From Nitrosomonas sp. (GTDB lineage Bacteria > Pseudomonadota > Gammaproteobacteria > Burkholderiales > Nitrosomonadaceae): DNA of 64,000 nt. The stretch lies in NCBI GenBank assembly GCA_020890945.1, contig JAJHPK010000039.1, forward strand, positions 25,693-89,692, written 5' to 3'. The notes under the pieces are model-generated. The model was given only the letters and a program-made list of their open reading frames with translations. It had not been told where the DNA came from and ran no database searches. Shown piece by piece: positions 7,217-38,438 of this stretch (positions within the stretch are counted from its first letter, which is position 1; every line of letters starts with the position of its first letter). The position numbers and the translations under genes were made by a program.

Positions 7217-7366
7217 AGTAACAAGATAGAGGATCTGCATCATCGGATTCTAATTTTGGTGACGTTAGTGCTAAAACTTCAATTGATACTTGATATGTAA
7301 CTATTTGTTAATAATAAAAATGTCATTAAACTTTTTTAATTTCAACAAAAAACTGGAGCTACTATC

Positions 7367-9341: not shown

Positions 9342-9352
9342 TACTTCCACAT

Positions 9353-10555: not shown

Positions 10556-10558
10556 ACA

Positions 10559-12508
10559 ATGAGCGAATTAAATTCTACCCCGAAATTAGGTAGCTATAAA
10601 ACGCTTCCAATGAATCAACCACAGCCATTGTTGATATGGAAACCCAAGGGTTATCTTAGTTCATTTGGCTTGTCAGTGTTATTTTTGTTGATGACGTTGC
10701 TGTTGTTAGTATCGTTGTCTCGTATCATTGCTTTGCCTGGATTACCATTATCCGAGTGGCCAGTATTCCATACATTGGGTCAGTTTGGGGCCATAATTAA
10801 TCATTCATTAACTTTGACCTGGGTACCATACTCCGACCGAGACACTGTTATCTACTTGTTGCTACTACCTACTGCAGCGCTGATGATTTCGATCACACGA
10901 TTGACTTTTGGTCTGCGTATATTGGGCTATCGTTCGGTATTAATTGCGGTTGGCTTCAATGAAATAGGTATTTTCCCAAGCTTGACGGTAATTCTCGTGG
11001 TGGTAGGAATCATTTTAGTATTGCGGCCCACTATGGACCATGTGAGATTACCTTTATATGGGCGCGTTTCGATAATCCTTGGTATTACGTCCTGTATATT
11101 AATTACGTCACTCTTTATGGGTTCTTGGTTTATGTCTGAGTGGGTATGGAGCCTAGCTTTTTTTCCAGTTATCATCTTGGCCATGATGGCGGAATCAGTA
11201 GCTAGAACACTTGATCTCGAGACAGCACGATCAGCTGCTTGGCGTTTAGTTTGGACAATTATCATTGCATTGATATTGGTAGGGTTTATGAACAATCCAG
11301 TATTGGTGGATGTATTGCTGCGTTTCCCTGAATTGATGCTACTACAGGTGCTTGCCATTATGTTGGTTTCTGAATATTTAGATTTACGTCTTTTTCAGGA
11401 TTGGCATAACACTATCATTGGTTCAACTTTATCTAAGTTTTTGCTTAAAGCAACCCATAATACCGTAAGAAAACCAAGAGTTGCGATTATACGTAATCGC
11501 TCATTTCACGGAACAATAGGTCGACTAGGGCCGATTGCATCGGACAAAACCAGAACGGAATCGATAAAGCATTTAATAACGGCATTGGAAGATGCAGGTT
11601 ATTTTGTCAAAGTATTTGAAGGCGATAGAACACTTCTGAGTGGATTACGTAAATTTTTACTACCACATCCTCGCACTGGTATCCCAGGAGGGATGGCATT
11701 AAATCTTAGCATCGGCATTCAAGGTTACGGTCGTCATACTCATGTTCCCGGGATGCTTGAAATGGCTGGGATAGCCTACACGGGTCCTGATCCAGTTGGC
11801 CATGCTCGATTGCAAGATCGTTTGAATCTTTTTTCATTGCTTCAACAAGCTGGTGTGTTAGTACCTCGCTTTTACGTCATTGGTGATTCAAACCCCTCTT
11901 TTTTTAATTTAAATTTTCCGGTATTTGTGCTTCCGAGAAGTGATCCGGATGCGGCTATATTGGTTAAGAATACCGCTGGCGTTTCGAAAGCAATCAGTCA
12001 AATACAGGCAAGTTATGATCAAGATATCTTACTGCAGAGCCATATTCTTGGTTCCGAATTTCGTGTAACGATTTTAGGCAATCAGCATCTCGAATGTCTT
12101 CCATTACTGCGCATTAATGCAATTAGTCAACAGCGTGAGTGTCCAGCATTAATTGAAGATCAACTGGCTGACCGCATTCGAGATTGCGCTTTTCGTGCTT
12201 ATCGCGCAGCTGGGTGCAGAGATTATGCCCGTGTTGATATACGTTTAAATGCTGATGAACAACCTTGTGTCGTGGGTATTCAAGTACAAAACATCTTTGC
12301 GCGCAAAGGTTCTGTCGCTATCATGATTGAAGCTGCAGGTTTAAATTGGAGCAAATTCCTACGTCATATCATTGAATTAGCAGCAACACGCACAGGATCT
12401 GAACTAAGCACGAAACTTTCAAGTGATACGTATGATAATTCATCTTCCGTTAACCCACTGATCGTTGACTACAGTAACGCTGATTCCCACACAATCCGGG
12501 CTCGTTGA
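10559..12508 (+). CDS. 7TM domain fused to a D-Ala-D-Ala-ligase-like ATP-grasp domain
   Basis: A 649-residue protein. Residues about 30-290 hold seven or so hydrophobic helices resembling the 7TM module that is usually fused to inactive transglutaminase (7TM_transglut_C), ending in MLVSEYLDLRLFQDWHN. Residues about 300-620 form a D-Ala-D-Ala-ligase-like ATP-grasp domain: VAIIRNRSFHG at the start, LNLSIGIQGYGRHTHVPGMLEMAGIAYTGPD in two parts, and RAAGCRDYARVDIRL. The usual ExN metal-ligand motif is replaced: where E-V-N is expected the sequence reads VVGIQVQN. The upstream Asp (ARVD) is kept. The domain may therefore be catalytically altered or dead. Related 7TM and ATP-grasp proteins are known as separate genes of peptide-ligation systems. 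The fusion suggests ligation or substrate binding at the inner face of the membrane. It overlaps the next gene by one base (TGATG). Confidence 0.75.
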   Translation: MSELNSTPKLGSYKTLPMNQPQPLLIWKPKGYLSSFGLSVLFLLMTLLLLVSLSRIIALPGLPLSEWPVFHTLGQFGAIINHSLTLTWVPYSDRDTVIYLLLLPTAALMISITRLTFGLRILGYRSVLIAVGFNEIGIFPSLTVILVVVGIILVLRPTMDHVRLPLYGRVSIILGITSCILITSLFMGSWFMSEWVWSLAFFPVIILAMMAESVARTLDLETARSAAWRLVWTIIIALILVGFMNNPVLVDVLLRFPELMLLQVLAIMLVSEYLDLRLFQDWHNTIIGSTLSKFLLKATHNTVRKPRVAIIRNRSFHGTIGRLGPIASDKTRTESIKHLITALEDAGYFVKVFEGDRTLLSGLRKFLLPHPRTGIPGGMALNLSIGIQGYGRHTHVPGMLEMAGIAYTGPDPVGHARLQDRLNLFSLLQQAGVLVPRFYVIGDSNPSFFNLNFPVFVLPRSDPDAAILVKNTAGVSKAISQIQASYDQDILLQSHILGSEFRVTILGNQHLECLPLLRINAISQQRECPALIEDQLADRIRDCAFRAYRAAGCRDYARVDIRLNADEQPCVVGIQVQNIFARKGSVAIMIEAAGLNWSKFLRHIIELAATRTGSELSTKLSSDTYDNSSSVNPLIVDYSNADSHTIRAR

Positions 12509-13623
12509 TGTTCACAAAGTTATATTTATATTACGGGTACGCAAAATTAAAGTTATGCAATCAGTGCAAGTTCCATTTTATTCTAGTATTGGCATGTGTA
12601 TTAGCAAATAATGTAATTGCTGATCAAGGTAGAAATAATGCCGCTGCTTCTTGTACAAGGAATACAGGTCCTATAGGTATATCTCCTGCCCATTGGTCTG
12701 ATCCATCAAAAACGAAAATGGGATTAGCAAAGCAAGGATTTAATAAAATTAATTTTGTAACCCGTGATGGCAAATCTTTGGTAGCACATATTTATAGGCC
12801 GAGTCGTTTTAATCCGAAAAACGGCCCAATATGGTTTGTGATGCATGGCATAAAACGTAATGCTGATGATTACATAAAAACTGCAGCACCAATTGCTGAA
12901 CGCTATCAAGCATTCACCATTGTGATTGAATTTTCGCGGCGACACTATCCAACCAGCGAAGATTACACACTCGGCATCACGACAAATGGGCGTGCTAACA
13001 ATCGTGCTGCAAGAGAAGGCCGTTATCGCAGACCGGAAAATTATCTTTATAACGAAATTGAGCGTGTATTTGAAGCAATACGATTGGCATTTCTAGGAAA
13101 GCAGCATGGCTATTATCTATTTGGTCATAGCGCTGGAGCACAATTCACACATCGGATGCTAACTTTTGTACCCTGTGCGCGAGTGCTTGGTGCGGTATCG
13201 GCAAATGCTGGTTGGTATACTTTGCCCGAGCAAGGTAACAATTTGAGTATGCCCTACAATCTACGGGGAAGCCCCTCTACAGATTCTGACATTAAAGCGC
13301 TTTTATCGGCTCCTTTGACATTATTGTTGGGAACAAAGGACATCAAAGGACCGGAAATCGACAGTAATGTGCGTAAAAGTTCGGCAGCGATGGCTCAAGG
13401 TGGTAACAGACTTGCTCGAGGGCAAAATTATTTTGAGATTGGTCAGTCACTTGCACGTTCAATGAATGTATGTTTTGGCTGGCAATTAGTGTTGGAGCCA
13501 GGAGCTGGGCATAACGTGAAACAAGTCATCGAATCGGCTGGTCATTTGTTATTTGCAGTCAAATCCAAACCATCTTGCACTTCAAACCAAATCAGTGAAG
13601 TGATCACAGTCTATTCAGGTTAA
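12508..13623 (+). CDS. Exported alpha/beta hydrolase, paralogue of the cytoplasmic one
   Basis: Starts at ATG 12508 inside the preceding stop (TGATG). An N-terminal hydrophobic segment (FHFILVLACVLANNVIA) acts as signal peptide or anchor, so the enzyme should sit in the periplasm or be secreted. The catalytic core has IWFVMHGIKRNADDY, the nucleophile elbow LFGHSAGAQFTHRML, NAGWYTLPEQG, LLLGTKDIKG and GAGHNVKQVIES with the likely catalytic His. Cys pairs near both ends could form disulfides. It shares several signatures with the hydrolase at 8484-9341. An esterase, peptidase or depolymerase acting on the cluster's product is the simplest inference. Substrate unknown. Confidence 0.8.
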   Translation: MFTKLYLYYGYAKLKLCNQCKFHFILVLACVLANNVIADQGRNNAAASCTRNTGPIGISPAHWSDPSKTKMGLAKQGFNKINFVTRDGKSLVAHIYRPSRFNPKNGPIWFVMHGIKRNADDYIKTAAPIAERYQAFTIVIEFSRRHYPTSEDYTLGITTNGRANNRAAREGRYRRPENYLYNEIERVFEAIRLAFLGKQHGYYLFGHSAGAQFTHRMLTFVPCARVLGAVSANAGWYTLPEQGNNLSMPYNLRGSPSTDSDIKALLSAPLTLLLGTKDIKGPEIDSNVRKSSAAMAQGGNRLARGQNYFEIGQSLARSMNVCFGWQLVLEPGAGHNVKQVIESAGHLLFAVKSKPSCTSNQISEVITVYSG

Positions 13624-13786
13624 ATTCAAGATTGAAGTTGTATAAGAAGTCCCACCTTCATTAAATTTTGGTGAAAACATCATCAATTTCTAACATTCTT
13701 AATAGATAGCGACTATTAGAAAAATCGAATGTCGATACCCTTTTACTACGCACGTCTTGAAAAATTTACGCATTCGAGATAATTAA

Positions 13787-14836
13787 ATGGATGAATACCA
13801 TATCACATTTGTCGGCGATACAAGTTTTGGTGAAAACTATAAACCACGGTTGGCAGGTAAAGATCTTATTAATACCAAAGGACGTGCATACTCGATGCAA
13901 AGAATTGCCCCTCTTTTAATGGAATCTGATCTAGTGATCGCTAACTTAGAAACACCATTGACCCTGCAAACAAACTCCCCATTTAAAGATCACAAGAAAT
14001 ACATCCATTGGTCCGATCCAGTCGAATCACCAAGAGTTCTAAAAGAACATAATATTAGTATTGTATCTCTGGCAAATAACCATACTCTTGATTACGGAAC
14101 CAATGCATTACTAGAAACATTTGCAAGTTTAGAAAAAAATAGTATCAAGTGGTTTGGTGCCGGACATAACAAATTAGAGGCACAACGTCCTTTCCGCAAG
14201 AAAGTCTTTGTAGGAGGCAAGGAGATTTTACTCGTGGTGATTGGTGCTTTTGAGTATCGAGCCGTCTATAAAAATCGATATGGTTTTTACGCAAGTAAAG
14301 ATTCGCCTGGTGTTAATCGCCTTTCCATTAAACGTATTACCAATCAAATAGTTCAGTTTAAAAGCAAAACACCTCAGTCAATAGTAATAGTATCTCCTCA
14401 TTGGGGAGAAAATTACAAATGGCATTCTTTGGAACAAGCACAACAAGCCAGATCTATGGCTGAAGCCGGTGCAGATTTTATCATAGGTCACGGTTCGCAT
14501 ATGATGAATGGCATAGAGCGTTTTGGTGATACTTGGACATTGTATAGTCTAGGGAATTTGACATTTAACTCCATGGGTGGATACAGTTACTTTAATGCAC
14601 CTCCCTTCAGTTTAATCGTTCGTATGTGCTTAAAAAGAGAAGATGAAACGATTGTAACGCAACTCAAGCTTTATCCAATCGTTACTGATAATCGCCTAAC
14701 CAACTTTCAATCTTGTCCTGTAAATGAGCAAGAAGCTAATAAAGTTGTTCAGTTACTAAAAAATCATAGTATGGGAATACCGATTGAAGCTTTTGCTCTG
14801 AATCATGATAGCTTCGGCTATTACTTCAAGTTATGA
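13787..14836 (+). CDS. CapA/PgsA-family metallophosphatase-like protein
   Basis: A 349-residue protein of the PGA_cap family (poly-gamma-glutamate capsule CapA). Diagnostic motifs in order are FVGDTSFGE, LVIANLETPLT, VSLANNHTLDYG, VIVSPHWGENY and FIIGHGSHMMNGIE. These give the Asp, Asn and His ligands of a dinuclear-metal calcineurin-like fold. It has no signal peptide or membrane anchor, unlike Bacillus CapA, so it is predicted to be cytoplasmic. It follows the exported hydrolase after 163 bases and may have its own promoter. Together with the P-loop and ATP-grasp proteins it points to an amino-acid polymer or peptide product. Its exact reaction is not known for most of the family. Confidence 0.85.
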   Translation: MDEYHITFVGDTSFGENYKPRLAGKDLINTKGRAYSMQRIAPLLMESDLVIANLETPLTLQTNSPFKDHKKYIHWSDPVESPRVLKEHNISIVSLANNHTLDYGTNALLETFASLEKNSIKWFGAGHNKLEAQRPFRKKVFVGGKEILLVVIGAFEYRAVYKNRYGFYASKDSPGVNRLSIKRITNQIVQFKSKTPQSIVIVSPHWGENYKWHSLEQAQQARSMAEAGADFIIGHGSHMMNGIERFGDTWTLYSLGNLTFNSMGGYSYFNAPPFSLIVRMCLKREDETIVTQLKLYPIVTDNRLTNFQSCPVNEQEANKVVQLLKNHSMGIPIEAFALNHDSFGYYFKL

Positions 14837-19526: not shown

Positions 19527-20693
19527 TGTAAAGAACGACATTTAATCTGACATTTCTATTTAAATTTACTTTTGAAAGGAAGTCAGATGAATATTGAAAC
19601 TGGACATAAAATCATTAAGAATAAGATTGGTTTGTTAAAACTGTCAGAAACATTAGGTAACATATCGCAGGCCTGCAAAGTGATGGGCTTTAGTCGCGAC
19701 AGTTTTTATCGATTTAAAGAACTATATGAGCAAGGAGGGGAGTCTGCGCTGCAGGAAATCAGTCGCAAGAAGCCGATTTTAGCGAACCGGGTTGCCCCAC
19801 AGGTTGAAGCAGCGGTTATCCGGCATGCGATTGCTCAGCCTGCTTATGGTCAGCATCGAGTCGCTAATGAATTACGTAAACAGGGGATTGTCGTTTCATC
19901 GGGGGGAGTGCGGTCGATCTGGCTACGCCATGATTTGGAAACATTTGCCAAGCGCCTGAAAGCTTTATCAGCCAAGGTAGCTCAAGATGGTTTGATTCTC
20001 ACAGAAGATCAATTGCGTGCGCTCGAAAAAGCTCGTGAGGAAAAACAAGCACACGGAGAAATCGAGACCGAGCATCCTGGGTATCTGGGCAGTCAAGATA
20101 CTTACTACGTGGGGAATATTAAAGGAGTGGGACGGATCTACCAACAGACATTTATCGATACTTATTGCAAGGTTGCTCTGGTCAAACTCTACGATCGCAA
20201 ACATGCGATTACTGCTGCCGACATGCTTAACGATCGCGTGCTGCCGTTTTATGAGGAACAAGGCATCCCTCTGTTACGTATTCTGACTGATCGAGGTAGT
20301 GAATATTGTGGTAATCGTGAGCATCATAACTATGAGCTTTATCTTGACTTGGAGAACATTGAACATACTCGCACCAAAGTCAAATCACCGCAGACCAATG
20401 GGATTTGTGAGCGTTTCCATCAGACCCTGCAAAACGAGTTTTATGCGAACGCCTTTCGACGCAAGATTTATCATTCTCTCGAGGAGTTACAATCCGATGT
20501 CGATACTTGGATTCATCATTACAACCATGATCGAACGCATTCCGGAAAACATTGCTTTGGTAAAGCACCCATGCAGACACTGAAAGACAGCATTCCTTTG
20601 GCGTTGGCCAAACAACTGAATCAGACTTTGCCGACGTCTGTTTCAGTCTCAGCTTAGTCGGCTTGTCTGTCAGAGCAAATTTCGTTCAGGACA
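19527..20693 (+). mobile_element. IS481-type insertion sequence, apparently complete
   Basis: A 1,167-bp element bounded by imperfect terminal inverted repeats that start with TGT. Left 19527-19552 and right 20668-20693 match at 20 of 26 positions, sharing GAACGA, ATTT and TCTGACA. It carries one full transposase gene. No target-site duplication is visible (gttatc before, agtcag after), which fits a rearranged insertion. The left end abuts the IS3 remnant. Confidence 0.85.
19587..20657 (+). CDS. IS481-family DDE transposase
   Basis: A 356-residue transposase from ATG 19587, preceded by AAAGGAAG. It has an N-terminal helix-turn-helix (ISQACKVMGFSRDSFYRFKELY) and a second HTH-like region (PAYGQHRVANELRKQGI). 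The integrase core follows, with FIDTYCKVALVKLYD, LTDRGSEYCG and the ERFHQTL...EFY segment with YNHDRTHSGKHCFGKAP, giving the expected DDE residues. No frameshift is visible, so it may be active. It lies wholly within the inverted repeats. Confidence 0.93.
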   Translation: MNIETGHKIIKNKIGLLKLSETLGNISQACKVMGFSRDSFYRFKELYEQGGESALQEISRKKPILANRVAPQVEAAVIRHAIAQPAYGQHRVANELRKQGIVVSSGGVRSIWLRHDLETFAKRLKALSAKVAQDGLILTEDQLRALEKAREEKQAHGEIETEHPGYLGSQDTYYVGNIKGVGRIYQQTFIDTYCKVALVKLYDRKHAITAADMLNDRVLPFYEEQGIPLLRILTDRGSEYCGNREHHNYELYLDLENIEHTRTKVKSPQTNGICERFHQTLQNEFYANAFRRKIYHSLEELQSDVDTWIHHYNHDRTHSGKHCFGKAPMQTLKDSIPLALAKQLNQTLPTSVSVSA

Positions 20694-21111: not shown

Positions 21112-22644
21112 TCAAGGCAAACCACTCTTCCTACAGGCACGATCTTCCCATTTGCAGAGATTCGCTTCATGTGAAGTAGTAGCCTCGGTGAGACATGCAT
21201 TAAGCGCACGATCGCAGTATCCTCTTTGCGGAGGCGGAGAGGAGACAGGGGGGGTTACGGCAATATCGAGTGTTCCCAACTCTGCTTGCACCGCACCGAT
21301 CGGGCTGTAGACTGATACTGGGGGAACAGCGTTCTGAAAGCCGCCCCAAGCGATTCCTACCAGCGCTACACGGGCCATTCCCATTTCGATGAAAACGGGC
21401 GATCCGCTGTCGCCGGGTTGTGAATCAAAGTTTGTCATGTCTTGACACAACAGCGTCTGAATTGTATCCCGCACTGGCATAGTCACGCAGCTGTTCGTGA
21501 CTGCACCGCTCGTGTAGCCTGTTGTTCGACCAATTTTATTAACGACAGTACCAACCAAGGGTGCCGGACCGGCGCGGTCCACCACTAGTTGAGCACCCCA
21601 GTAGTCCATCGTTGGGCCACAGGGAGGTGTACTGCAGGCCCTTGTCGGAAGTGCGATGTTACCAAGACCGTTGCCGTCTGCGGGGTCGTTAAAGGCTGCA
21701 AAGGCCGAGTCGCTGAAGCGGCACAACCGACCCGGTGGACAATTGGGCAAAGATGGTATCCAGGCGGGATTGACGGTATCTGTTGCGCTGGCAAGAGAGA
21801 TCAGACTGGGCTGATGAAGCGGTGTGCCTAATGCGCCGCCCGTGCCAGCATTGGTGCAGTGCGAATTAGTGAGAAACCCCATAACGCCGGCACGTTTGGC
21901 TACGGCCGTTACTGTACATGCATTTGGAGTTACACCTGGAAATACTCCTATAGATTCCCAAAAACTCATCTGGATGCCGCCCTCAAATGGTCTAAAGACA
22001 TCCCGTAGTGAATGATAAAACTCAGCCTCCTGATGTTGCACAACACGCACTGCACCGTTCGGCACGCCAATTTTCGCTATGTACTTCTCGGCTCTAGACA
22101 TACCTTCTTTTGTCGTAACGCCGATCGTTACACAATTGCACACCTCGTCGGCATCTAAAGACGCCGCATCCAGCAGCGTCATGACCTCGGCGAGTTTGTC
22201 TCGATAATCCAAGAGCTCGAACCACGTCCGCTTCGCTGACTTGAAAACGATGATAGGATTCTCATCAGCCGTGCCGTTCGCTTCGGCACGTGCCTCAAGG
22301 TAACGTTTAATGAACGGAAGCGCTTCTTCTTCCTTCGATGAATCCGTCAGAGCGACAATGACGTTACCCTTCTCGTCCAGATATAAACCTCCGAATGAAG
22401 GCACAAGACGATTCAGGGTCGCAAACCCTAGATCTAGTGAAATCGCATGAGCGGCACGTTCGATCGGGTCGAGGATGATATCAGATGTTTCTGTCGTTGC
22501 GGCACGTGCGGTGAATGTGCCGATGGATAAAATAACCAAGCATAACTTCAATAAGGCATTGCAACAACATTGCTTCATCCTGGCTACTGTGGCGTCCTCG
22601 ATCAATGCCGGAACTATGATTAGTTTAGATAAGATTTTCATCAT
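21112..22644 (-). CDS. Secreted chymotrypsin-fold (S1-type) serine protease
   Basis: A 510-residue exported protein. The hydrophobic signal lies at about residues 30-48 (KLCLVILSIGTFTARA), after a longer-than-usual N-terminal tail. ATG 22644 has AAGGAG upstream, while ATG 22578 would give a more ordinary signal peptide. Residues about 50-220 look like a propeptide or inhibitor domain. The protease domain follows, with GFLTNSHC (catalytic His), RFSDSAFAAF (likely Asp) and SQPGDSGSPVF (Ser). Paired Cys (CPPGRLC, CSTPPC) suggest disulfides. The C-terminus is a Pro-rich linker plus a short Cys-rich tail. GC content is above that of the backbone. It is translationally coupled to the small gene before it. 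Confidence 0.85.
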   Translation of the reverse strand: MMKILSKLIIVPALIEDATVARMKQCCCNALLKLCLVILSIGTFTARAATTETSDIILDPIERAAHAISLDLGFATLNRLVPSFGGLYLDEKGNVIVALTDSSKEEEALPFIKRYLEARAEANGTADENPIIVFKSAKRTWFELLDYRDKLAEVMTLLDAASLDADEVCNCVTIGVTTKEGMSRAEKYIAKIGVPNGAVRVVQHQEAEFYHSLRDVFRPFEGGIQMSFWESIGVFPGVTPNACTVTAVAKRAGVMGFLTNSHCTNAGTGGALGTPLHQPSLISLASATDTVNPAWIPSLPNCPPGRLCRFSDSAFAAFNDPADGNGLGNIALPTRACSTPPCGPTMDYWGAQLVVDRAGPAPLVGTVVNKIGRTTGYTSGAVTNSCVTMPVRDTIQTLLCQDMTNFDSQPGDSGSPVFIEMGMARVALVGIAWGGFQNAVPPVSVYSPIGAVQAELGTLDIAVTPPVSSPPPQRGYCDRALNACLTEATTSHEANLCKWEDRACRKSGLP

Positions 22645-23408: not shown

Positions 23409-23965
23409 TCAGGCGAAAGACGCCCAGGGGTAAAGATCAGCCCAGTGATGAAGAGGATTGAAAGGAACGAGCGCGGGATCAGGTTGGATCGAAAAGTTCG
23501 AAGGCCTGCGCAGACGCTCTAGGCGGTGCCCGCGCAGGCAAACCGAGATGATCAAGAATTTTAGTGATTGCGCCGGATTCCAGGATAGCGGCAATGATTT
23601 TCAGAGTTCCGCCACAGTGCGGACAATCTTCGATATCGATATCAAACACCCGCTTGAGCAAACGCGCCCAACTGATGCGCACGGAAACCGGGGAAGGCAG
23701 CACATCGGCATTCGTATCGAATCCATTACTTTTGTTTTTCTTGCTGCCAGGAATCATCTCAGCACGCAGTTTGGCGTTCGGCGCAAGCACGCCATGGAAA
23801 CGAATGAGGTTGAGCCTTGGCCGGGGAACCAGCGCAGCCAGCCGTTGCATGAATTCAAGGTGTCTTCAGCTTTAACACGATTTGCCCATCTTTATTGCGT
23901 GTCAGTCGTTCATTAGCAATCGCCGGTCGCGTGATGTAACGGCACAGATGTTCCAGTGTTATCAC
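23409..23965 (-). pseudogene. IS91-family transposase remnant
   Basis: Minus-strand translation from about 23965 reads LEHLCRYITRPAIANERL, then QIVLKLKTP and a stop, then after a gap of some 20 residues RLAALVPRPRLNLIRFHGV, WARLLKRVFDIDIEDCPHCGG, and ILDHLGLPARAPP. This is the C-terminal third of the IS91/ISCR Y2 transposase. An internal deletion and stop make it non-functional. It lies directly downstream of the multiheme cluster. IS91-type elements move flanking DNA by rolling-circle transposition, which may bear on how that cluster arrived. Confidence 0.85.
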
Positions 23966-26745: not shown

Positions 26746-27521
26746 CGGGTCAGATCAAGGATGCGAATCTTTTGTTCCTTGTCGTAGTTGCGTTTAAAGA
26801 ATTGCGGGAGTACATGGCGTTGGATTTGCTTAGCCTGGTCAGGGTTCGCACCAAGGGCCTGAAGGTCGAACAGCGGCTTTTTTTCCTGGTGGCAACCATC
26901 GCATGACAAGCCCTGTGGCTCAAGCGGGCGATGCAGTTGGGCGTGTAGCTGAATCTTTTGTTCTGTATCGCCCTCGCGCCATAGGCGGGCGATGTCCTGT
27001 GCTTTTGCAGATGAAGGCAAGGGAACGGCGGGTTGGTCTTGCCAGAAAGGTGCGATTTTCACGTTTCCATCCGGCAGATTCTCGTTGTCCAGATCACGGC
27101 CCGCACGAAAGCGCGAAGCATCGGCTTCTAGTACCTGTCCGTTGGAAAAATCGAGCCATCGGTAAGCAAAAGTAACGTTTTTCGGACGAAAATGACAGGT
27201 ACTGCACGCAATATAGCGGCTGTGCATGTTGAGCAAGGCGCGCGTCCACAGCGATTGCCGGTGTGGCAGGGGCAAATGACACATCTGGCAGAACGTTTCA
27301 CCTTGACTGATTGGCTGCTGCGGACGGCGATGAAAAGGAGGCAACTGCTGATCCAGATCCTCTCGAATCTCGATTTCTCGGTAATCATGAATCGTTTTGC
27401 GCGACTCGGCCAGCCGTTTCTCGTCGGGACGCTGTTCGATGGCTTCCAGATAGATCGGATTTGCCTGTGCGCCACTGATCCAATAAAACGATGCAACCAG
27501 TAGTATGAATCTAATAAACAT
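26742..27521 (-). CDS. Triheme c-type cytochrome
   Basis: About 259 residues from ATG 27521. This start is chosen because it is followed by a clean signal peptide (MFIRFILLVASFYWISGAQA). The frame extends further upstream, but into the reductase gene. Heme motifs are CQMCH, CSTCH and CDGCH. The C-terminal third (about 70 residues after the last motif) has no heme. It would reside in the periplasm. The start codon lies inside the last codons of the flavocytochrome gene (11-base overlap) and its stop overlaps the NHL cytochrome start, so all three are translationally coupled. Partner-specific electron shuttle is the inferred role. Confidence 0.85.
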   Translation of the reverse strand: MFIRFILLVASFYWISGAQANPIYLEAIEQRPDEKRLAESRKTIHDYREIEIREDLDQQLPPFHRRPQQPISQGETFCQMCHLPLPHRQSLWTRALLNMHSRYIACSTCHFRPKNVTFAYRWLDFSNGQVLEADASRFRAGRDLDNENLPDGNVKIAPFWQDQPAVPLPSSAKAQDIARLWREGDTEQKIQLHAQLHRPLEPQGLSCDGCHQEKKPLFDLQALGANPDQAKQIQRHVLPQFFKRNYDKEQKIRILDLTR

Positions 27522-30417
27522 CGCGCTGATACCTTCCTTCCTGTTCCATAATCTTGACATAATCCACAGCCTGTTCGCGTGAGCGACCGCTGGCTTTGAT
27601 GACAACATCAATCAAGGCAGCATGAACATCCTTAGCCATGCGCGCCGCTTCGCCACAGATATAAAAGCTTCCACCTTCCTCCAGTAATGCATAAAGCGCT
27701 TGGGCTTCCTCACGCATGCGCTGATGGACATAGATACGCTCGGTCTGATCCCGCGAAAAAGCCAAAGACAGCTTGCTTAACACGCCCCGTTTGAGTTTGT
27801 CTTCCCATTCTTGTTGGTAGAGAAAATCGCAGGCCTGATGCTGATCACCGAAAAACAGCCAATTTTTGCCCGATGCCCCGATTGCTTCACGCTCTTCGAC
27901 AAACCCCCGGAAAGGCGCGACCCCGGTTCCGGGCCCTACCATGATCATGGGTGAGGCAGGATCCTTAGGTGGACGAAAATGTGCGTTTGTTTGCGTGAAA
28001 ACCGGAATATGGCTACCGATCGGACGACGCGCCAGATAATTGGAAGATACCCCCTCGCGGTCCAGGTCGTAGGCATGGTAACGCACCACCCCTACTGTGA
28101 CGTGCACCTGTCCCGGATGCATCTTGGGGCTGGACGAAATGGAATACAACCTGGGTGGAATGGCACGAAAAATCTTCAGAACTTCTTCAGCCGTCAGCGC
28201 CCCGAGCGGGAAGTCTTGCAGTATATCCAGCCAAAGCCTACCATAGAGATAATCCTGCAAAGCGGCGTCATTCGTCAGCAGTTGTGCCAATTCTGCGTTG
28301 CCGGTAAGGCTTGCGTATTTCTCCAACACAGGACGAGTCACTGTGGTAATTTCCAGCCGCCCGAGCAGCATTTCATGCAAACTGAGACGTTCCTCATTGT
28401 GGATGATTTCGTGATCGGGATTCCAGCCGAGTTGCCGGATGAAGCTTTCCACGTAGGGACCGCCATTACGAGGATAAATCCCCAAAGCGTCACCCGCTTC
28501 ATAGGTCAGCCCCGAGTCGCCAAGATCAATTTCGATATGACGGGTTTCCTTCGATGAATTGGCAGCATTGAGATTGTTATTGCTCAATATCCTGGCCAAA
28601 TACGGCCGCTGCTTTCCATAACCTGAAGATGTCGGCTTGACCTCCGGAGGTGGTTCGATGCCCTCATGGCCGCTAAGCTCCCGGTAGGCTGCAATTACTT
28701 GTGCCATCCACGCAGTGGCCGCTGCTTCAAAATCTACGTCGCCGTCGACCCGAGGCAAAACGGAAATCGCTCCGAGCTTGCTCAAATAAGTATCGAAATC
28801 CCTACCACATTGACAGAAATTACGATAACTGCTGTCCCCTAACGCGAACACGGCATAGTGCAGGTGCCCGAACAGGGGGGTAGTATGTTCCCTTGCTGCA
28901 AGTCCCTTCAGATAATGATACAGTGTCTGCGCGGTAAGGGGAGGCTCTCCTTCACCCTGCGTGCTAGTTAGCAAAAACAGATAACGAAGCCCGACCAGTT
29001 CTCGTGGCGCAAATTCCGCCATATTGATCAGGCGCACCGGAAGTTGCCAGCGTTCGGCCAGATTAAAATGCCGTTCGGCTAATTCTTCGGCATTACCAGT
29101 CTGCGATGCATAAAGAATAATCAGAGAATCGTCTAGTTCATCCGGTTTGGTTTGAACCGACGTGTCCTGACCGGCCGGCTTCTGCCATGGCCAGCGCTTT
29201 TCCGGCAGTTTCATTCCTAGCATCACCCGACGAAAACGATCTGCACCCAGCAATGGTTCGCCTGTTTCGCGCCGCTCCCACCACCACCATCCTCCCTGTC
29301 CCAGCAGAAACAATCCGGCAAACGGTCCCAGTATCATTAACACATTAAACCACCTCGATTTTTCATCCGCGGTTACAGGAGAAAAATCGGTGCCGCGTAA
29401 TTTATCCGCATCAACCCAGGCAATGTTATGCACATCGGTTTTGAGAAAACCGGCGTTTCTGGGATCACGAGCATAATCCAGATGGCAACCCGACTGGCCG
29501 CAGGTTTCGGGTAGTCCGTCTTTGTGAGTGGATGATTGATCATCGCGTGAACGCTTGATGCTATGGCGCGCGCCAGCTCCTATCGGAGCGTGACAATCCA
29601 GGCATGAGGCACCATGTTCATTGCCAACTTCCAGCAACCTTCCATGAAGAAATTTGGCATAGCTTGCAACTGCCAGTACAAAGCGCGGTCCGGCTGGTTC
29701 GAGTTGGGGTTCACCTTGCTCTGTTTCGCTTTTTTCCGGATTTTCGATTTTTACCCTGCTCATGGCTTCGGTGTTGCCATGACAATTGATACACATCTTG
29801 TTTTCTTCATTCTTGGAATAATGCTTGCCGACCAGACGCCGTAGGATATGGCCTGAATACTGATCACGCCAGACCTCTCCTTGATGGCAGTTGCCACACT
29901 GCATGTCGACATGATCAAACGCTTCAAAGAAGATCGACAGACGCTCGGGCTTAATATAGGGTTCATTAAAATGGCAGCGTCGGCAGGATGGATTTTGCTG
30001 TTCCTCTACCTCCTTAAGCCGATTGCCACCATGCAAATCTTTCGTCCATCCGGCATGCAAACCCTTGCCATGCGCTGATTGCTCGAACTCCTCGACAACG
30101 TTCCTGTGACTGAAGGCTTTGCCTTTAGAAGGCTCTTTAACGTGACAGCTTTGACCGCAATCGACATAGCCATCTTTGGGATCATGAGGATAATCCTGAA
30201 TTTGGCGATGACAATCGCGGCAGGGCACACTGCCGTGCAGCGAAGCGTAATAATCCTTGCGCAAAATACTGGCAGTGCGCCGCGTCCCTTCTTCATCGAT
30301 ATACTCGAGCCCCGGTAAGCCATGACAGGAGAAACATCCATCCGGATCACTGTGACGCTCGAGTGCGCCAAGCGGCCAGGAAATGACCAGCAAGGCAAAA
30401 AACAAACTCCATTTCAT
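27511..30417 (-). CDS. Octaheme cytochrome fused to a CysJ-type NADPH flavoreductase
   Basis: A 968-residue single polypeptide. A signal peptide (1-19) leads into an exported heme domain with motifs at C28, C66, C145, C174, C209 and C272 (CxxCH), a CX3CH at C87 and a CX4CH at C306. One membrane helix (357-379) with a Trp-rich end follows. Next comes a complete diflavin reductase as in sulfite reductase alpha and P450 reductase: FMN domain (YASQTGN 436, TSTQGEGEPP 484, ALGDSSYRNF 525), FAD motifs (RLYSISSSP 756, GVSSNYL 789), NADPH motifs (GPGTGVAPFRGF 828, YICG 919) and the C-terminal RDVY of CysJ. Predicted topology places hemes in the periplasm and flavins in the cytoplasm. How electrons would cross the membrane is unclear; the NapH-like neighbour could help. 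I know of no characterised homologue with this layout. Confidence 0.93.
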   Translation of the reverse strand: MKWSLFFALLVISWPLGALERHSDPDGCFSCHGLPGLEYIDEEGTRRTASILRKDYYASLHGSVPCRDCHRQIQDYPHDPKDGYVDCGQSCHVKEPSKGKAFSHRNVVEEFEQSAHGKGLHAGWTKDLHGGNRLKEVEEQQNPSCRRCHFNEPYIKPERLSIFFEAFDHVDMQCGNCHQGEVWRDQYSGHILRRLVGKHYSKNEENKMCINCHGNTEAMSRVKIENPEKSETEQGEPQLEPAGPRFVLAVASYAKFLHGRLLEVGNEHGASCLDCHAPIGAGARHSIKRSRDDQSSTHKDGLPETCGQSGCHLDYARDPRNAGFLKTDVHNIAWVDADKLRGTDFSPVTADEKSRWFNVLMILGPFAGLFLLGQGGWWWWERRETGEPLLGADRFRRVMLGMKLPEKRWPWQKPAGQDTSVQTKPDELDDSLIILYASQTGNAEELAERHFNLAERWQLPVRLINMAEFAPRELVGLRYLFLLTSTQGEGEPPLTAQTLYHYLKGLAAREHTTPLFGHLHYAVFALGDSSYRNFCQCGRDFDTYLSKLGAISVLPRVDGDVDFEAAATAWMAQVIAAYRELSGHEGIEPPPEVKPTSSGYGKQRPYLARILSNNNLNAANSSKETRHIEIDLGDSGLTYEAGDALGIYPRNGGPYVESFIRQLGWNPDHEIIHNEERLSLHEMLLGRLEITTVTRPVLEKYASLTGNAELAQLLTNDAALQDYLYGRLWLDILQDFPLGALTAEEVLKIFRAIPPRLYSISSSPKMHPGQVHVTVGVVRYHAYDLDREGVSSNYLARRPIGSHIPVFTQTNAHFRPPKDPASPMIMVGPGTGVAPFRGFVEEREAIGASGKNWLFFGDQHQACDFLYQQEWEDKLKRGVLSKLSLAFSRDQTERIYVHQRMREEAQALYALLEEGGSFYICGEAARMAKDVHAALIDVVIKASGRSREQAVDYVKIMEQEGRYQRDVY

Positions 30418-31493: not shown

Positions 31494-32390
31494 TTAATCT
31501 ACAAAAGTATGACATGCACGACACAAGGTGCCGTCTTTGGCGGCAAGACGTAGTAAAGCTTCCCCCTGAATTTGCTGATAGTCATAGGTGAGCGGTCGCC
31601 CATATCGGGCACTGATGACTGCCAGACGAGGCGCTTTGTCTTCAGCAATTGTTTCTTTCCATAAACTATCGCGATACCGCGGCGCTTCGTTCACTTTGGC
31701 AGTACTGACCTGATGCGAGGCAGGCAATGATGTATCGATGACTCCAGGCGGATGCGGTGTATGACAAGTGATACAGGTGACACGGTTATCTTCGGTCAAA
31801 GGCAGGATCACTTCGGGGTGTTCTTGCAAGAAACGCTCACGCTGCTTTTTCACTTTCTTGGAAGGCTCGACCTGATGCTCAAGCGCGTTAAAGTGAGGCG
31901 TCTTCAAATGACAACCATAGCAGAGCTTATCCATCGGTGCTCTGAGCTTGAGTTCGGATAACTCGTAACGCTGATCACGCTCCAATACTTCCCGATGGCA
32001 ATAGCGGCAATACTCTTCCTTCGGCTTGTCTTGAGCATCTAGCATATCGTGGATATTCGGCCGACGGTGTTTTTCTTCATCGTGGCAACGGTAGCAGAAT
32101 TGGTTCAGGTCAGGATAAGGGCCATCACGAAGAAAATCCGGATGTTTCTTGTCGATCTTGGCGAAATCCTGCTTGTCGATATCCTCAATCCCATGACACA
32201 CGGGACACTTAAGCATCCGATCCGTTTGCAGCGGCAACCGGGAATCTAGTTGCATCGAATCAGGAACAGCAATGTCGACCAAATGGTGCAAAGGCGGTGT
32301 TTTGGGTTGTTTTTCCTTTCCCATCTCAGCAGCCCAACCCGGTAAATTGACCGTAAAACCGAACGCCAAAACAAAGACAAACCATTTCAT
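31494..32390 (-). CDS. Hexaheme c-type cytochrome
   Basis: About 298 residues from ATG 32390, whose first bases form the ATGA overlap with the upstream octaheme gene. The signal peptide is MKWFVFVLAFGFTVNLPGWA. Six CxxCH motifs: CPVCH, CYRCH, CRYCH, CYGCH, CITCH, CRACH. Many nearby His can provide distal ligands (DEEKHRRPNIHDM, KTPHFNALEHQ). It would be a soluble or loosely bound periplasmic carrier between the inner-membrane donors and the barrel module. The hydrophobic-poor mature part makes membrane insertion unlikely. Confidence 0.9.
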   Translation of the reverse strand: MKWFVFVLAFGFTVNLPGWAAEMGKEKQPKTPPLHHLVDIAVPDSMQLDSRLPLQTDRMLKCPVCHGIEDIDKQDFAKIDKKHPDFLRDGPYPDLNQFCYRCHDEEKHRRPNIHDMLDAQDKPKEEYCRYCHREVLERDQRYELSELKLRAPMDKLCYGCHLKTPHFNALEHQVEPSKKVKKQRERFLQEHPEVILPLTEDNRVTCITCHTPHPPGVIDTSLPASHQVSTAKVNEAPRYRDSLWKETIAEDKAPRLAVISARYGRPLTYDYQQIQGEALLRLAAKDGTLCRACHTFVD

Positions 32391-33355
32391 AATCCAGCCT
32401 GAGCGGCGCGCCCATGAGTATGGCAAAGGGTGCAATCGCTGCCGACCTGATGCACTCCAAACAGACCGTTTCCGGTATCTAGCCCGCCATCTTCAACCAG
32501 AATTTCCATCTGATGGCACAGTACACACAACTGCGAGTAGTCTCCGTTGATGCTACGCACTGGCACTCCTTCCTGGCGGAAAGTGGAATAGAACACGCCC
32601 TTGCGGCTATCATCCAAAATCAACTTGGCATTTTCGGTGCCGTGCATAGCGTGGCACTCGGTACACGGCAAGACTACACCGTAGCGATAAGGCGGACGCA
32701 AACCGGCATAAGTCCGCTGACCACTACCCGATGCGAATCCATGCTTATCAATGTAATGCCAGCTTTCCTCGATGGCGATGATGGGATCCCGATAGTCTCC
32801 GTTGATCGGGAAATTGGCGTTTTGATGCTCGCGGTTATGACATCGTAGGCAAAACTCCGATTCGTGGGTGTATGCGCTCCTCAAACCCCATTGATCTGGC
32901 AGTTTGGTCAAGTCGACATTGATATCCCAGCGCCCATTCATATCGGAGGCTTCATGACAAGTCAGGCACTGCTGATCACTCAAATTACCCGTATCTTGAT
33001 TGCGCAGGAAGTTATGCGCATGCTTACCGGACAGAATCGGTGTAGACGGTAAATCGTCGGAGTTGTGGCAAATAATGCAGCGGCGCTCTGCTGCCGTTCC
33101 GTTGCTGCCATGACAACCAGTGCAGGTATCATAGCCTTTGTCTCGCACGACGCCACGAATATTTGGCGCGTTTTTGTGAATCAGGCTCAGGACATGGCAG
33201 GACTGGCATCGCTCTTTTCCCCACCCTTCGTGGCGTTCGCTCATTACCAGACGCCCTTCGTCAGGGGCAATGTCGATGAAATTAGCCGCCCAAGCAATTC
33301 CTACGATAATTCCTGCACAAATAAAGAGCAGTATTGCCCAGAACCATTGCTTCAT
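32387..33355 (-). CDS. Octaheme c-type cytochrome with N-terminal signal or anchor
   Basis: 322 residues. The N-terminus MKQWFWAILLFICAGIIVGIAWA is a long hydrophobic stretch that may be a signal peptide or an uncleaved anchor. Eight CxxCH motifs by count: CQSCH, CTGCH, CIICH, CLTCH, CLRCH, CTECH, CVLCH, CTLCH. Size is similar to MtrA-like periplasmic cytochromes that plug porins, though these usually have ten hemes. It lies 2 bases after the heptaheme gene and overlaps the hexaheme start by ATGA. Inferred role: transperiplasmic relay, possibly at the outer-membrane barrel encoded just upstream. Confidence 0.9.
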   Translation of the reverse strand: MKQWFWAILLFICAGIIVGIAWAANFIDIAPDEGRLVMSERHEGWGKERCQSCHVLSLIHKNAPNIRGVVRDKGYDTCTGCHGSNGTAAERRCIICHNSDDLPSTPILSGKHAHNFLRNQDTGNLSDQQCLTCHEASDMNGRWDINVDLTKLPDQWGLRSAYTHESEFCLRCHNREHQNANFPINGDYRDPIIAIEESWHYIDKHGFASGSGQRTYAGLRPPYRYGVVLPCTECHAMHGTENAKLILDDSRKGVFYSTFRQEGVPVRSINGDYSQLCVLCHQMEILVEDGGLDTGNGLFGVHQVGSDCTLCHTHGRAAQAGL

Positions 33356-35654: not shown

Positions 35655-38438
35655 TTACAGTCGATCCGTCAGCCCATAAAAGCCCGCTGTATCGGTTTTA
35701 AATACCACGTATCCATCTTCCATTTCTAGATTCGGATTGTTGGCCTGTCCTCCCGGTAAGCCCGTGCCATTGACTGCGCGTGCTGGCGCAAAGTACACGA
35801 TGTCTTTTGGATCGACACGATGGACCTCATTGCCGTCGACTGATGCGACAACCTCAATCTGGCCGATTTCTGTCGATCGTCCTCGATAAGGCATCTTGAC
35901 GAACAACGAATTGCCCAGCAAATTGGTCATTTTTTGCTTGGTATCGTCGAGCATGCTGACGTGAATGACGTCCGAGGCAAGTTCACCAAACTTGCGATCC
36001 CGCAAAAATGCACTGAGCTCTGGTGAAAGTTCGTATTGCAAAAATTCAACTCGCCACTGCGAAGCCAAAGCATCTGTAATGGTATTGACTAGCATAGCCG
36101 CCATGGTGTTTCGGAGCGCGCCTTTTCCATAACGCGGCGCCACGCCATACACCTCGGCAGCCGATCCGACCATATCAAGCAGTCCTTTGCTATCCTGAGT
36201 GGCACCTCTAAACATTTCCTCGAGCGTCATTTTTCTGAGGAATCCGCCAAAGAACTGGCTGCCAGGCGCATTACTGATGGTCATAAAAGGATTGATGAGC
36301 GTCGTAAACAGAATGTCATCCTGCGTGGTGGAGATTGTTCCATCACCGGCCACTCGCATGTAAGGCAAATCCAACTTAACAACACCTTCATTCACCAACG
36401 CTGGATCGGGCAGTTTACTGACAACTTTTGTGTTACCCGAACCAAAAATTCCGTCAGCTTTCAGCAAGGAACTGAACGAACCGTTTTGTTTTACTGCGTG
36501 GCAATCAGCGCAATCCAGTGCTTCATTTGCCGGGCGTACGTTGTGGGAAATGATATATTCATTGGACTCAAACCACAGCATTTTCACATCAGGTTGACGT
36601 CCATTGAGCAAAGGTCCATGACGCTGCTTCATCAGACTGTCATAGGCCACCTTGAGCGAACGATAACTGTCCGCATCCGCCGGGTCTTTAACCGATGCAC
36701 TGCCATGCGAAATAGTACCCTCCAGACGGCCTGGTAACGTGGAACCACTTTGAGGATCGATGATATTCAAGTAGCTTACCGTTTCACCTTCCTTTTTCTC
36801 GGCTGGTGTAACTACCAAACCACGCTCGAATCTAGACAATGCCCAACCGGTCACGGTATCAATCCACAAATAGCGTAAACGCGGGTTGTAAGGAGTGATT
36901 TTACGCTTGCCTTCCTGGTTATCTCGGTATCGATACATGATTTGCAACGGTTGTCCGCTGCTTTGCAAACCGGTAATGTGACAGGTCTCGCAGCTTAAAA
37001 CATCTAAGTGCGTTTGCACGACCTTGTTTAGACTGTCTGCAGTGTAACCCGCAAGCGATCCACCATTCTTCCAGCGCTCAAGGTGCGCATCCAGGATGGT
37101 GGGTTGTCCCGAAGGAATAATGGGCGCTTTACCCATTTTATTTTTATTTTCGGTGTGACAGTATTCGCAATTACGTAAATCCGCCGAGAAATCCAGGTCA
37201 TTGCGGATATCCATATCCGAATTCCCCTTCATGAAATCATGATTTTGATCGAGGTTAACGGCCGCTGTTTTGGGTTTTAGGTAACTGCTACTGTGACAGA
37301 TGTTGCAATTGTCCATCACCCGCGATTCACCATCTTGCCAGTAGCGAGCCAGATCGGCGCCTTTATGTACGTCGTCTTTGTAATCAGATACCAGCGTACC
37401 GTCTTCGCCAAGCTCCATACGCGCTTCACTACCATATCCGTAAAAGCCGCGACGAGAATTACTGGTGATATGGCAGGACATGCAGTTTTCGGTTTCAGGA
37501 TAACGTAGCATCGAAACACTGATACGCCCACTCTCATCGAATGCCTCCCGATTCCAACTAAAAATTGGATTGCCAGCGGCATCGGTCATGATTTCATAAT
37601 TTTTCTCGTCCGCCCAATTCCGTCCGATGGACAGAATCTTTTTCCCATCCGTAGTCGGCAAAAATTCCCAGGCAGTGCTGACCGCGTGACCAAACCAGCC
37701 GCCACTAGCAAGCTTGTGTTGAGCATTCCGGTAGTCAGCGATCCCCCCGCTGGGGCTTTTCATACGCTCATCAGGAACCATCACCTGCTCTGGACTCATG
37801 TGGCACCACAAACAGTCGGCTTCGTACAAACCGCTTTTGTTCCAATTCCATTTACTCAGCACTGAATTATCGTGGGTCATATTGTTGTTTTCATCTTTGC
37901 CACGGGCGAAATAATCGCCAGAATACATAGAGATACTCCCTGGATCACGCTTGGTGTAAAAAATGCCATCGCGATCTTTTTCCCCATAACCGCTACCCGC
38001 ATGACAGGAAGAGCAGCCAGCAATGAAATCGGCCGCCCCCATGTCGCGAAACATTTCCGGATACGGCGTATCCTTGAAGGACAGCATGGTCGGATTACTA
38101 CCACCCATGCAAGTAAATCCACCAAAAAATCCTGGTCCTGCGAGCCACTTGCCGCTGAGATAACTACTATAAGAACCGAATCGATCGGAAGCCTCGTCAC
38201 GCCCCATTTCGAAGTGATAGGCACTGGTTATCTTGTCGTAATCGTGGCAACCCGAACCGGCACAGGTTTGGCGAGAGCTGTAAGGTTTACCTGTATCCAA
38301 GACATTTTGTCCATCTTCACCCAGAAGTGGGATAGGAGGATGTTTGACCGGTTTATCGATCCAGTTAACTCTGGCGCTTACCTGACTAGCCAGTACCATC
38401 ATGCCCATGAGCAGGACAATTATTCTGATGTTGTACAT
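35655..38438 (-). CDS. Large octaheme c-type cytochrome, first gene of the cluster
   Basis: 927 residues with a Sec signal peptide (MYNIRIIVLLMGMMVLASQVSA). The heme motifs are a CX4CH near the N-terminus (CAGSGCH), then CSSCH, CLWCH, CMSCH, CNICH, CEYCH, CETCH and CADCH, eight in all, spread over the first 670 residues. The last 260 residues lack heme and contain GVVKLDLPYMRVAGDGTI and a C-terminal beta-rich part with NPNLEMEDGYVVFKTDTAG. Wide spacing and long inter-heme domains distinguish it from simple wires and suggest a catalytic or surface terminal cytochrome. No lipobox. A 150-base gap with a hairpin separates it from the next gene. The substrate is unknown. Confidence 0.9.
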   Translation of the reverse strand: MYNIRIIVLLMGMMVLASQVSARVNWIDKPVKHPPIPLLGEDGQNVLDTGKPYSSRQTCAGSGCHDYDKITSAYHFEMGRDEASDRFGSYSSYLSGKWLAGPGFFGGFTCMGGSNPTMLSFKDTPYPEMFRDMGAADFIAGCSSCHAGSGYGEKDRDGIFYTKRDPGSISMYSGDYFARGKDENNNMTHDNSVLSKWNWNKSGLYEADCLWCHMSPEQVMVPDERMKSPSGGIADYRNAQHKLASGGWFGHAVSTAWEFLPTTDGKKILSIGRNWADEKNYEIMTDAAGNPIFSWNREAFDESGRISVSMLRYPETENCMSCHITSNSRRGFYGYGSEARMELGEDGTLVSDYKDDVHKGADLARYWQDGESRVMDNCNICHSSSYLKPKTAAVNLDQNHDFMKGNSDMDIRNDLDFSADLRNCEYCHTENKNKMGKAPIIPSGQPTILDAHLERWKNGGSLAGYTADSLNKVVQTHLDVLSCETCHITGLQSSGQPLQIMYRYRDNQEGKRKITPYNPRLRYLWIDTVTGWALSRFERGLVVTPAEKKEGETVSYLNIIDPQSGSTLPGRLEGTISHGSASVKDPADADSYRSLKVAYDSLMKQRHGPLLNGRQPDVKMLWFESNEYIISHNVRPANEALDCADCHAVKQNGSFSSLLKADGIFGSGNTKVVSKLPDPALVNEGVVKLDLPYMRVAGDGTISTTQDDILFTTLINPFMTISNAPGSQFFGGFLRKMTLEEMFRGATQDSKGLLDMVGSAAEVYGVAPRYGKGALRNTMAAMLVNTITDALASQWRVEFLQYELSPELSAFLRDRKFGELASDVIHVSMLDDTKQKMTNLLGNSLFVKMPYRGRSTEIGQIEVVASVDGNEVHRVDPKDIVYFAPARAVNGTGLPGGQANNPNLEMEDGYVVFKTDTAGFYGLTDRL

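Follow-up and report, generated by a model that had tools for sequence, protein, structure and literature searches.

An octaheme cytochrome–CysJ reductase fusion in a Nitrosomonas gene cluster, a candidate NADPH inlet to a proposed outward electron conduit

We analysed a 64,000-nucleotide stretch of DNA from Nitrosomonas sp. (GenBank assembly GCA_020890945.1, contig JAJHPK010000039.1, positions 25,693 to 89,692; hereafter, the window), in which one gene joins an octaheme c-type cytochrome domain to a CysJ-type diflavin reductase. The open reading frame (ORF) comprises 968 codons, uninterrupted from ATG to stop, and its Pfam and NCBIfam domains bear out the original prediction, made from the sequence alone, of a single polypeptide; the coordinates given at that time, 27511-30417, are exact, but the location on the minus strand was left unsaid. 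Residues 1-20 resemble a signal peptide, as judged by eye on this sequence and on homologous proteins, in line with the same prediction. We identified CxxCH sites at residues 28, 66, 145, 174, 209 and 272, together with two unusually spaced sites (CX3CH at residue 87 and CX4CH at residue 306), so that the recount reproduces the earlier tally. All eight sites align with those of stand-alone octaheme proteins, one of the six rows having CxxCH at the last site. A search of solved structures with the octaheme profile gave one weak match, cytochrome c nitrite reductase (0.00045), and a plasmid search with fusion residues 1-368 gave none.

The C-terminal half matches Flavodoxin_1 (residues 434-563, 2.2e-24), FAD_binding_1 (602-794, 2.3e-32) and NAD_binding_1 (826-932, 1.3e-13) in Pfam, and it retains the reductase motifs RLYSISSS, GPGTGVAPFRGF, SRDQ and RDVY, the last forming the C-terminal end of the protein; the earlier description of a full FMN-FAD-NADPH reductase ending in RDVY is thus accurate. 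The NCBIfam cysJ model TIGR01931 covers residues 421-968 (1.1e-184), starts at model position 50 and gives a score of 615.4 bits, which falls short of the curated threshold (668.15). Among solved structures, the best match is 6efv, a sulfite reductase NADPH flavoprotein (2.2e-126), and solved CysJ aligns over residues 432-968. The segment that precedes the flavodoxin domain in CysJ, which has a role in octamer assembly, is absent from the fusion, and the octaheme domain, a helix and a linker occupy its place. An AlphaFold2 (AF2) model contains a helix at residues 355-380, followed by arginines. Two weak points attach to this helix, as it is under the Kyte-Doolittle cut-off of 1.6 and its region has a predicted local distance difference test score (pLDDT) mostly below 50; we accept it as a predicted membrane span, consistent with the single helix originally proposed, since stand-alone octaheme proteins have a C-terminal helix with which it aligns. 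The model is usable for the CysJ half, and pLDDT is mostly below 50 in the octaheme half. The reductase half is probably cytoplasmic, and the eight-heme half probably lies outside the inner membrane.

A contig scan with a single protein as query confirmed no relative, and a profile scan of genome contigs with the octaheme alignment, keeping the best 80 of 128 relatives, yielded 76 loci. Six of these are octaheme-CysJ fusions, each adjoined by NapH, and their hosts are three Methylothermaceae metagenome-assembled genomes (MAGs), two Methylococcaceae MAGs and Methylococcus capsulatus Texas (L047). Among the matches listed for 311 genomes of the M. capsulatus order, 12 genomes apart from the source genome carry the fusion, with 52-63% identity over nearly the whole length; 11 fusions are full length without a stop, and the 12th (G437, the genome of L045) ends at a contig edge inside the CysJ half. 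In half of the 12, the contig concerned is numbered C1, and the three such contigs that were extracted (from G734, G740 and G471) are 2.4-3.4 Mb long. Codon comparison with three fusion genomes shows that divergence is lowest at position 2, intermediate at position 1 and highest at position 3 in both halves, in all 3 comparisons that yielded a result, which shows coding constraint on each half. Across the compared genomes it is the linker that varies, as for a genuine linker, and a stop or frameshift in the stretch of residues 380-430, which the original prediction had named as the outcome that would speak against a single chain, is ruled out by the 11 full-length fusions.

That the fusion is an artefact of assembly, frameshift or misbinning is therefore hardly credible. 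The draft assembly is split into 106 contigs and the G+C content of the cluster is unlike that of its flanks, both of which could point to an artefact, but the identical architecture in 12 other genomes, the large contigs and the constraint in both halves rule out a frameshift or misassembly. A misbinned contig is unlikely, since the TypA that it encodes has 96% identity with that of two same-genus genomes, which places the contig in the genus.

The adjacent upstream gene encodes a NapH-like membrane iron-sulfur protein, and its stop lies 2 bp ahead of the fusion ATG. A NapH-like protein adjoins each of the nine fusions whose neighbours were examined, of the 12 in the M. capsulatus order. At two loci (L049 and L050), the NapH-like and octaheme parts share one open frame without an intervening stop. 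A class-wide search of 369 genomes gave an octaheme match at 1e-40 or better in seven: the source genome, a CysJ fusion (G881), a stand-alone octaheme adjoining NapH (G949, L166), and further NapH-octaheme fusions (L167, L168 and L169), plus G813 (frame of 661 aa). Fusion of NapH to the octaheme in some genomes, and of the octaheme to CysJ in others, argues that the three parts may form one complex. The guess in the original prediction that the adjacent NapH-like protein is the partner accordingly gains strong support from gene order, from adjacency in 9/9 cases and from the natural NapH-octaheme fusions. These single-chain proteins (L049, L050 and L167-L169) are good structural targets for a transmembrane wire from iron-sulfur clusters to heme; the AF2 model of a NapH-octaheme fusion has an overall pLDDT of 43.5 and is unusable.

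Both CX3CP motifs and both ferredoxin motifs are kept in every aligned NapH-like row that covers them, and four extra cysteines, in the motifs DLCGxLCMRR and SACxxC, occur in 16 of the 16 covering rows. The helix pattern would place these extra cysteines (C54, C58, C156 and C159) on the periplasmic side, and the presence of four cysteines per membrane face suggests two further clusters. Of five other NapH-family proteins that were compared, four are without the extra cysteine pairs and one (L157) has similar pairs, and the second CX3CP is altered in two (L157 and L163). The window protein scores 67.3 bits against the NapH/MauN model TIGR02163, for which the cut-off is 213.05, and a solved-structure search matched it only from residue 206 on, in the ferredoxin part. 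The Pfam and NCBIfam matches of the nine cluster genes include no catalytic subunit of a nitrate reductase, and their Pfam matches include no cytochrome b. Across the 76 octaheme loci, a cytochrome b is adjacent in 63, NapH is adjacent or fused with no cytochrome b within 400 bp in 9, and neither partner is present in 4, of which three have octaheme frames that run past the available sequence.

The fusion is the seventh of nine cluster genes, which in the direction of transcription (38438 down to 24079) encode the 927-aa multiheme, porin-like, heptaheme, octaheme, hexaheme, NapH-like, fusion, triheme and NHL proteins (Table 1). The last eight genes overlap or are at most 12 bp apart, whereas 426 bp separate the large multiheme gene from the porin-like gene. 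We counted 51 CxxCH motifs in the seven cytochromes. Multiheme cytochromes, such as a porin-cytochrome conduit would need, are present, and the porin-like protein, which has no family match, may be a barrel, to judge by its presumed counterpart MCA0427. The same order occurs with CysJ in L044, L047, G734, G740 and G471, and without CysJ in L048, G615, G530 and G713; G486, also without CysJ, matches over the portion within its stretch. In L046 the porin-like protein, three cytochromes, NapH and the fusion are present, and L042, L043 and L045 are short contigs. The cluster seems to continue to the outer membrane and is shared with methanotrophs; neither point was part of the original prediction, nor was the cytochrome b that more commonly partners this octaheme.

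Table 1. Positions in the window of the fusion gene, its parts and the other cluster genes.
Feature	Position	Strand	Basis
Octaheme-helix-linker-CysJ fusion protein, 968 aa	27511..30417	minus	ORF, Pfam, NCBIfam, fused homologues
Octaheme c domain, residues ~21-344, 6 CxxCH + 1 CX3CH + 1 CX4CH, putatively periplasmic	29386..30357	minus	Heme positions, shared with stand-alone octahemes
Single helix, residues 355-380, predicted membrane span	29278..29355	minus	Low-confidence AF2; aligns with stand-alone octaheme helix
CysJ-type diflavin reductase (FMN, FAD, NADPH), residues 431-968	27514..29127	minus	Pfam, NCBIfam, solved relative, motifs
NapH-like membrane Fe-S protein, 353 aa	30420..31481	minus	Two ferredoxin 4Fe-4S motifs; CX3CP at 103, 207; conserved C54, C58, C156, C159
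Triheme c protein, 259 aa	26742..27521	minus	ATG at 27521 counted by hand; ORF list: TTG at 27611
NHL-repeat protein, 14 CxxCH, 888 aa	24079..26745	minus	Pfam, motif count
Hexaheme c protein, 298 aa, ATG at 32390	31494..32390	minus	Pfam, motif count
Octaheme c protein of different type, 322 aa, 8 CxxCH	32387..33355	minus	Pfam, motif count
Heptaheme c protein, 203 aa	33358..33969	minus	Pfam, motif count
Porin-like protein, 426 aa	33948..35228	minus	Presumed counterpart of beta-barrel MCA0427
Large multiheme c protein, 927 aa, 7 CxxCH + 1 CX4CH	35655..38438	minus	Presumed outer-surface protein, counterpart of MCA0424/0426

From gene order in M. capsulatus Texas (L047), we infer that MCA0431 of strain Bath is the counterpart of the fusion. 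The Bath operon MCA0424-MCA0433 would then correspond to the cluster as a whole, and strain Texas shares the cluster order, with two large cytochromes. This operon has been described as eleven genes with eight multiheme cytochromes, 58 CxxCH motifs and one beta-barrel protein (PMC4831470), compared with 51 motifs in the window, and one extra 7-heme copy would make 58. It is upregulated in copper-starved Bath cells, MCA0424 and MCA0426 have been detected at the cell surface, and electron export has been proposed for the system; MCA0431 is entered there simply as a multiheme c-type cytochrome (PMC4831470). An earlier account of MCA0421-0443, from 2004, notes a new gene that carries a flavodoxin domain, as well as an iron-sulfur binding protein not described before (PMC517821), and copper-starved M. 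capsulatus produces more anodic current and reduces more iron oxide (PMC6281684). Our searches of an open-licence library turned up no account of a chain that joins this octaheme to CysJ, nor of its pairing with NapH.

We consider it probable, though with a good measure of doubt, that the fusion is the cytoplasmic inlet of an electron conduit across the cell envelope that is fed by NADPH instead of the quinol pool and leads outward. This reading draws on the recurring fusion, the shared gene order, the NapH-octaheme fusions, the conserved cysteines of the NapH-like protein, the partners found at the 76 octaheme loci, the single clade of fused CysJ halves, the retained reductase motifs, the coding constraint and the copper-starvation data on the counterpart operon. 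The topology, cofactor loading, electron path and its direction, the use of NADPH and the acceptor would then be as follows. NADPH would be oxidised at the FAD of the CysJ half in the cytoplasm, and single electrons would leave via FMN. As one helix cannot conduct electrons through the bilayer, they would have to be handed to the adjacent NapH-like protein, passing its two ferredoxin-type clusters and then the cysteine sites at both membrane faces, and from there to the periplasmic, membrane-tethered octaheme domain. The other cluster cytochromes, the porin-like protein and the large surface cytochrome would carry them further, to an extracellular acceptor that may be Fe(III), Cu(II) or an electrode. 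Outward flow driven by NADPH is downhill. What would be new is a porin-cytochrome-type conduit with an NADPH inlet, the M. capsulatus region and the suggested electron export being known already; we know of no other conduit of this kind with such an inlet.

Several observations weigh against this reading. At least five NapH-octaheme systems are without a CysJ part (L048, G615, G486, G530 and G713), and in at least 15 genomes of the M. capsulatus order the octaheme frame is only 446-471 aa long; in systems of this kind NapH would take electrons from another donor, which makes CysJ an optional add-on donor module. The porin-like protein has no match in Pfam or NCBIfam, the L046 fusion has no match to the large cytochrome, the triheme protein or the NHL protein beside it, and at 44 bits the porin-like match in L050 cannot be relied on. 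Neither AF2 model positions the octaheme, and cofactor distances could not be taken from them. NADPH is expensive for an ammonia oxidiser, and spending it outside the cell would be odd. The M. capsulatus current was obtained with formate, and deletion of MCA0421, which lies outside MCA0424-0433, lowered but did not abolish it (PMC6281684).

A bolder version of the NADPH-fed conduit, which we hold tentatively and regard as rather less likely, is a hard-wired path from NADPH to the exterior that bypasses quinones and crosses the inner membrane on an all-iron-sulfur wire. The wire would consist of the two ferredoxin clusters, a four-cysteine site at the cytoplasmic face formed by both CX3CP motifs, and a site at the periplasmic face formed by C54, C58, C156 and C159. 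Such a system may have arisen when cytochrome b was swapped for a NapH-like protein, with CysJ added later, and an ammonia oxidiser may have received it from methanotrophs; run in reverse, it might make NADPH. To our knowledge, all known Gram-negative extracellular electron systems draw on the quinol pool. A system fed directly by NADPH would tie reduction at the cell surface to biosynthetic reducing power, give methane and ammonia oxidisers a way to reduce metals or balance their redox state, and offer a mechanism for a copper-controlled methanotroph operon. A deletion method works in M. capsulatus Bath (PMC6281684), which makes the conduit testable there.

The same path from NADPH to the surface could instead serve assimilation, extracellular Cu(II) or Fe(III) being reduced for uptake in the manner of the yeast FRE reductases, a purpose that we regard as unlikely but worth weighing. 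Copper is required by methanotrophs for pMMO and by ammonia oxidisers for AMO, and assimilatory reductases usually use NADPH. The induction of the counterpart operon by copper starvation, the inclusion of a TonB system in the copper-responding cluster of M. capsulatus, and a FUR box predicted upstream of MCA0424 in Bath fit such a purpose as well (PMC4831470). However, upstream of the large cytochrome at 11 loci, Bath and Texas excluded, we detected no Fur-like box above chance (the best score in the window was 13/19, which was reached by 15% of shuffles, and the L136 region comprised only 30 bases), and none of the nine cluster genes matches a TonB-receptor or metal-uptake family in Pfam or NCBIfam. 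It is very unlikely that the conduit runs inward, with external electrons reducing NADP+ and sparing reverse electron flow. The diflavin step is reversible in principle and NAD(P)H is costly for ammonia oxidisers, but about -320 mV is uphill from most external donors, no ion pump was recognised among the nine genes in Pfam or NCBIfam, and the known M. capsulatus current is anodic (PMC6281684).

Least convincing among the functional alternatives, and highly improbable, is that the CysJ half serves sulfite reduction with CysI and that the heme half is an unrelated anchor. The source genome does have a CysI-type gene and no other CysJ match. Yet CysI-type domains occur in 39 of 41 genomes of the genus, and of 36 relatives in the same genus just 5 carry their own CysJ match; in all five (G001, G018, G021, G035 and G036, with the CysJ of G018 in two pieces) the CysI-type hit adjoins CysJ, whereas in the source genome CysI lies on contig C82 and the fusion on C17. 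The cysJ match lacks the N-terminal part of the model, and the fusion adjoins heme genes also in L044, L046, L047, G734, G740 and G471. With its separate contig, and with CysI of the genus mostly unaccompanied by a CysJ match, CysI is an unlikely partner.

In the CysJ tree, the fused CysJ halves form one clade of 12 rows (support 100/99), within which the window fusion belongs to a subclade of six rows with Methylothermaceae MAGs (100/99); the sister of the fused clade consists of six rows with frames of 735-756 aa, L130, L131 and L132 among them. The midpoint-rooted octaheme tree agrees with this, in that it unites 20 NapH-type rows (100/100) and places the window in a set of six (96/95), and it does not settle whether the fused octahemes form one clade. 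G+C content is 0.49-0.53 across 24-38 kb, compared with mostly 0.37-0.47 in the rest of the window, and an octaheme match is absent from all 36 same-genus genomes searched. On the combined basis of both trees, the G+C island and this absence from the genus, the cluster most likely represents a methanotroph system gained horizontally. At the left border of the high-G+C island, transposase-like ORFs, recognised by eye, lie at 19572-20657 and 23479-23850, a position that fits horizontal acquisition; between them, at 21112-22644, lies a trypsin-like protein (Pfam Trypsin, 2e-4).

Elsewhere in the window, positions 5891-14836 hold a run of genes for TolC-like, HlyD-like, D-Ala ligase-like (below cut-offs) and PGA_cap proteins, possibly a cluster for biosynthesis and export of a peptide or polymer. 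AmoA was not found in the source assembly, which is 99.95% complete. Within the genus, 22 of 41 genomes show an AmoA match, which makes Nitrosomonas the probable identity of the host; the missing gene is perhaps a collapsed multi-copy operon, true absence being another possibility.

Comparison with known systems shows that the fusion shares its octaheme domain and odd heme spacings with inner-membrane modules of an octaheme and a cytochrome b, which we take to be CbcL-like, and triheme and NHL-multiheme neighbours occur in most of these loci, as in the window. These modules have a cytochrome b that is presumably quinol-linked, whereas the window has a NapH-like protein and an NADPH reductase instead. 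The NapH-like protein resembles NapH, NosR and PceC in its two CX3CP motifs, two ferredoxin-type motifs and several helices, and differs from them in its four extra cysteines, predicted on the periplasmic side, and in having octaheme and CysJ partners rather than a nitrate reductase or a flavinylated domain. NapH-like proteins have been portrayed as an apparatus for transmembrane electron transfer that is used in a modular way (PMC8238504).

The fusion has all three cofactor domains and the RDVY end of the CysJ sulfite reductase flavoprotein; unlike CysJ, it is without the N-terminal part, has a predicted membrane tether, has no CysI beside it and is under the TIGR01931 cut-off. CysJ is joined to a redox protein also in two molybdopterin oxidoreductase-CysJ frames (L148 and L152, 1392 and 1419 aa), which presumably resemble assimilatory nitrate reductase fusions, and in a Molydop_binding-CysJ frame (L130), none of which has a membrane part in its Pfam matches. 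CysJ follows the Molydop_binding domain at L130:1074-3323 (Pfam), and the same N-terminus was seen by eye at L131:1707-3974 and L132:1409-3622; similar frames of 735-743 aa occur in L146, L147 and L150, and a FwdB-like frame (by eye) adjoins the one in L131 and L132. L130 and L131 come from Methylothermaceae MAGs. The Molydop_binding part of these fusions resembles, as we take it, formylmethanofuran dehydrogenase subunit D, and their makeup suggests an NADPH-linked formylmethanofuran step.

In its overall plan, the fusion can be likened to NADPH oxidase, STEAP and FRE proteins, in which electrons from a cytosolic NAD(P)H-flavin unit cross the membrane. MsrQ-like proteins with an NAD-binding domain likewise send electrons across the membrane from a cytosolic NAD(P)H-flavin unit (PMC8238504). 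All of these cross by b-hemes within one membrane domain, whereas in the window a separate iron-sulfur protein is proposed to carry the electrons across and c-hemes would receive them.

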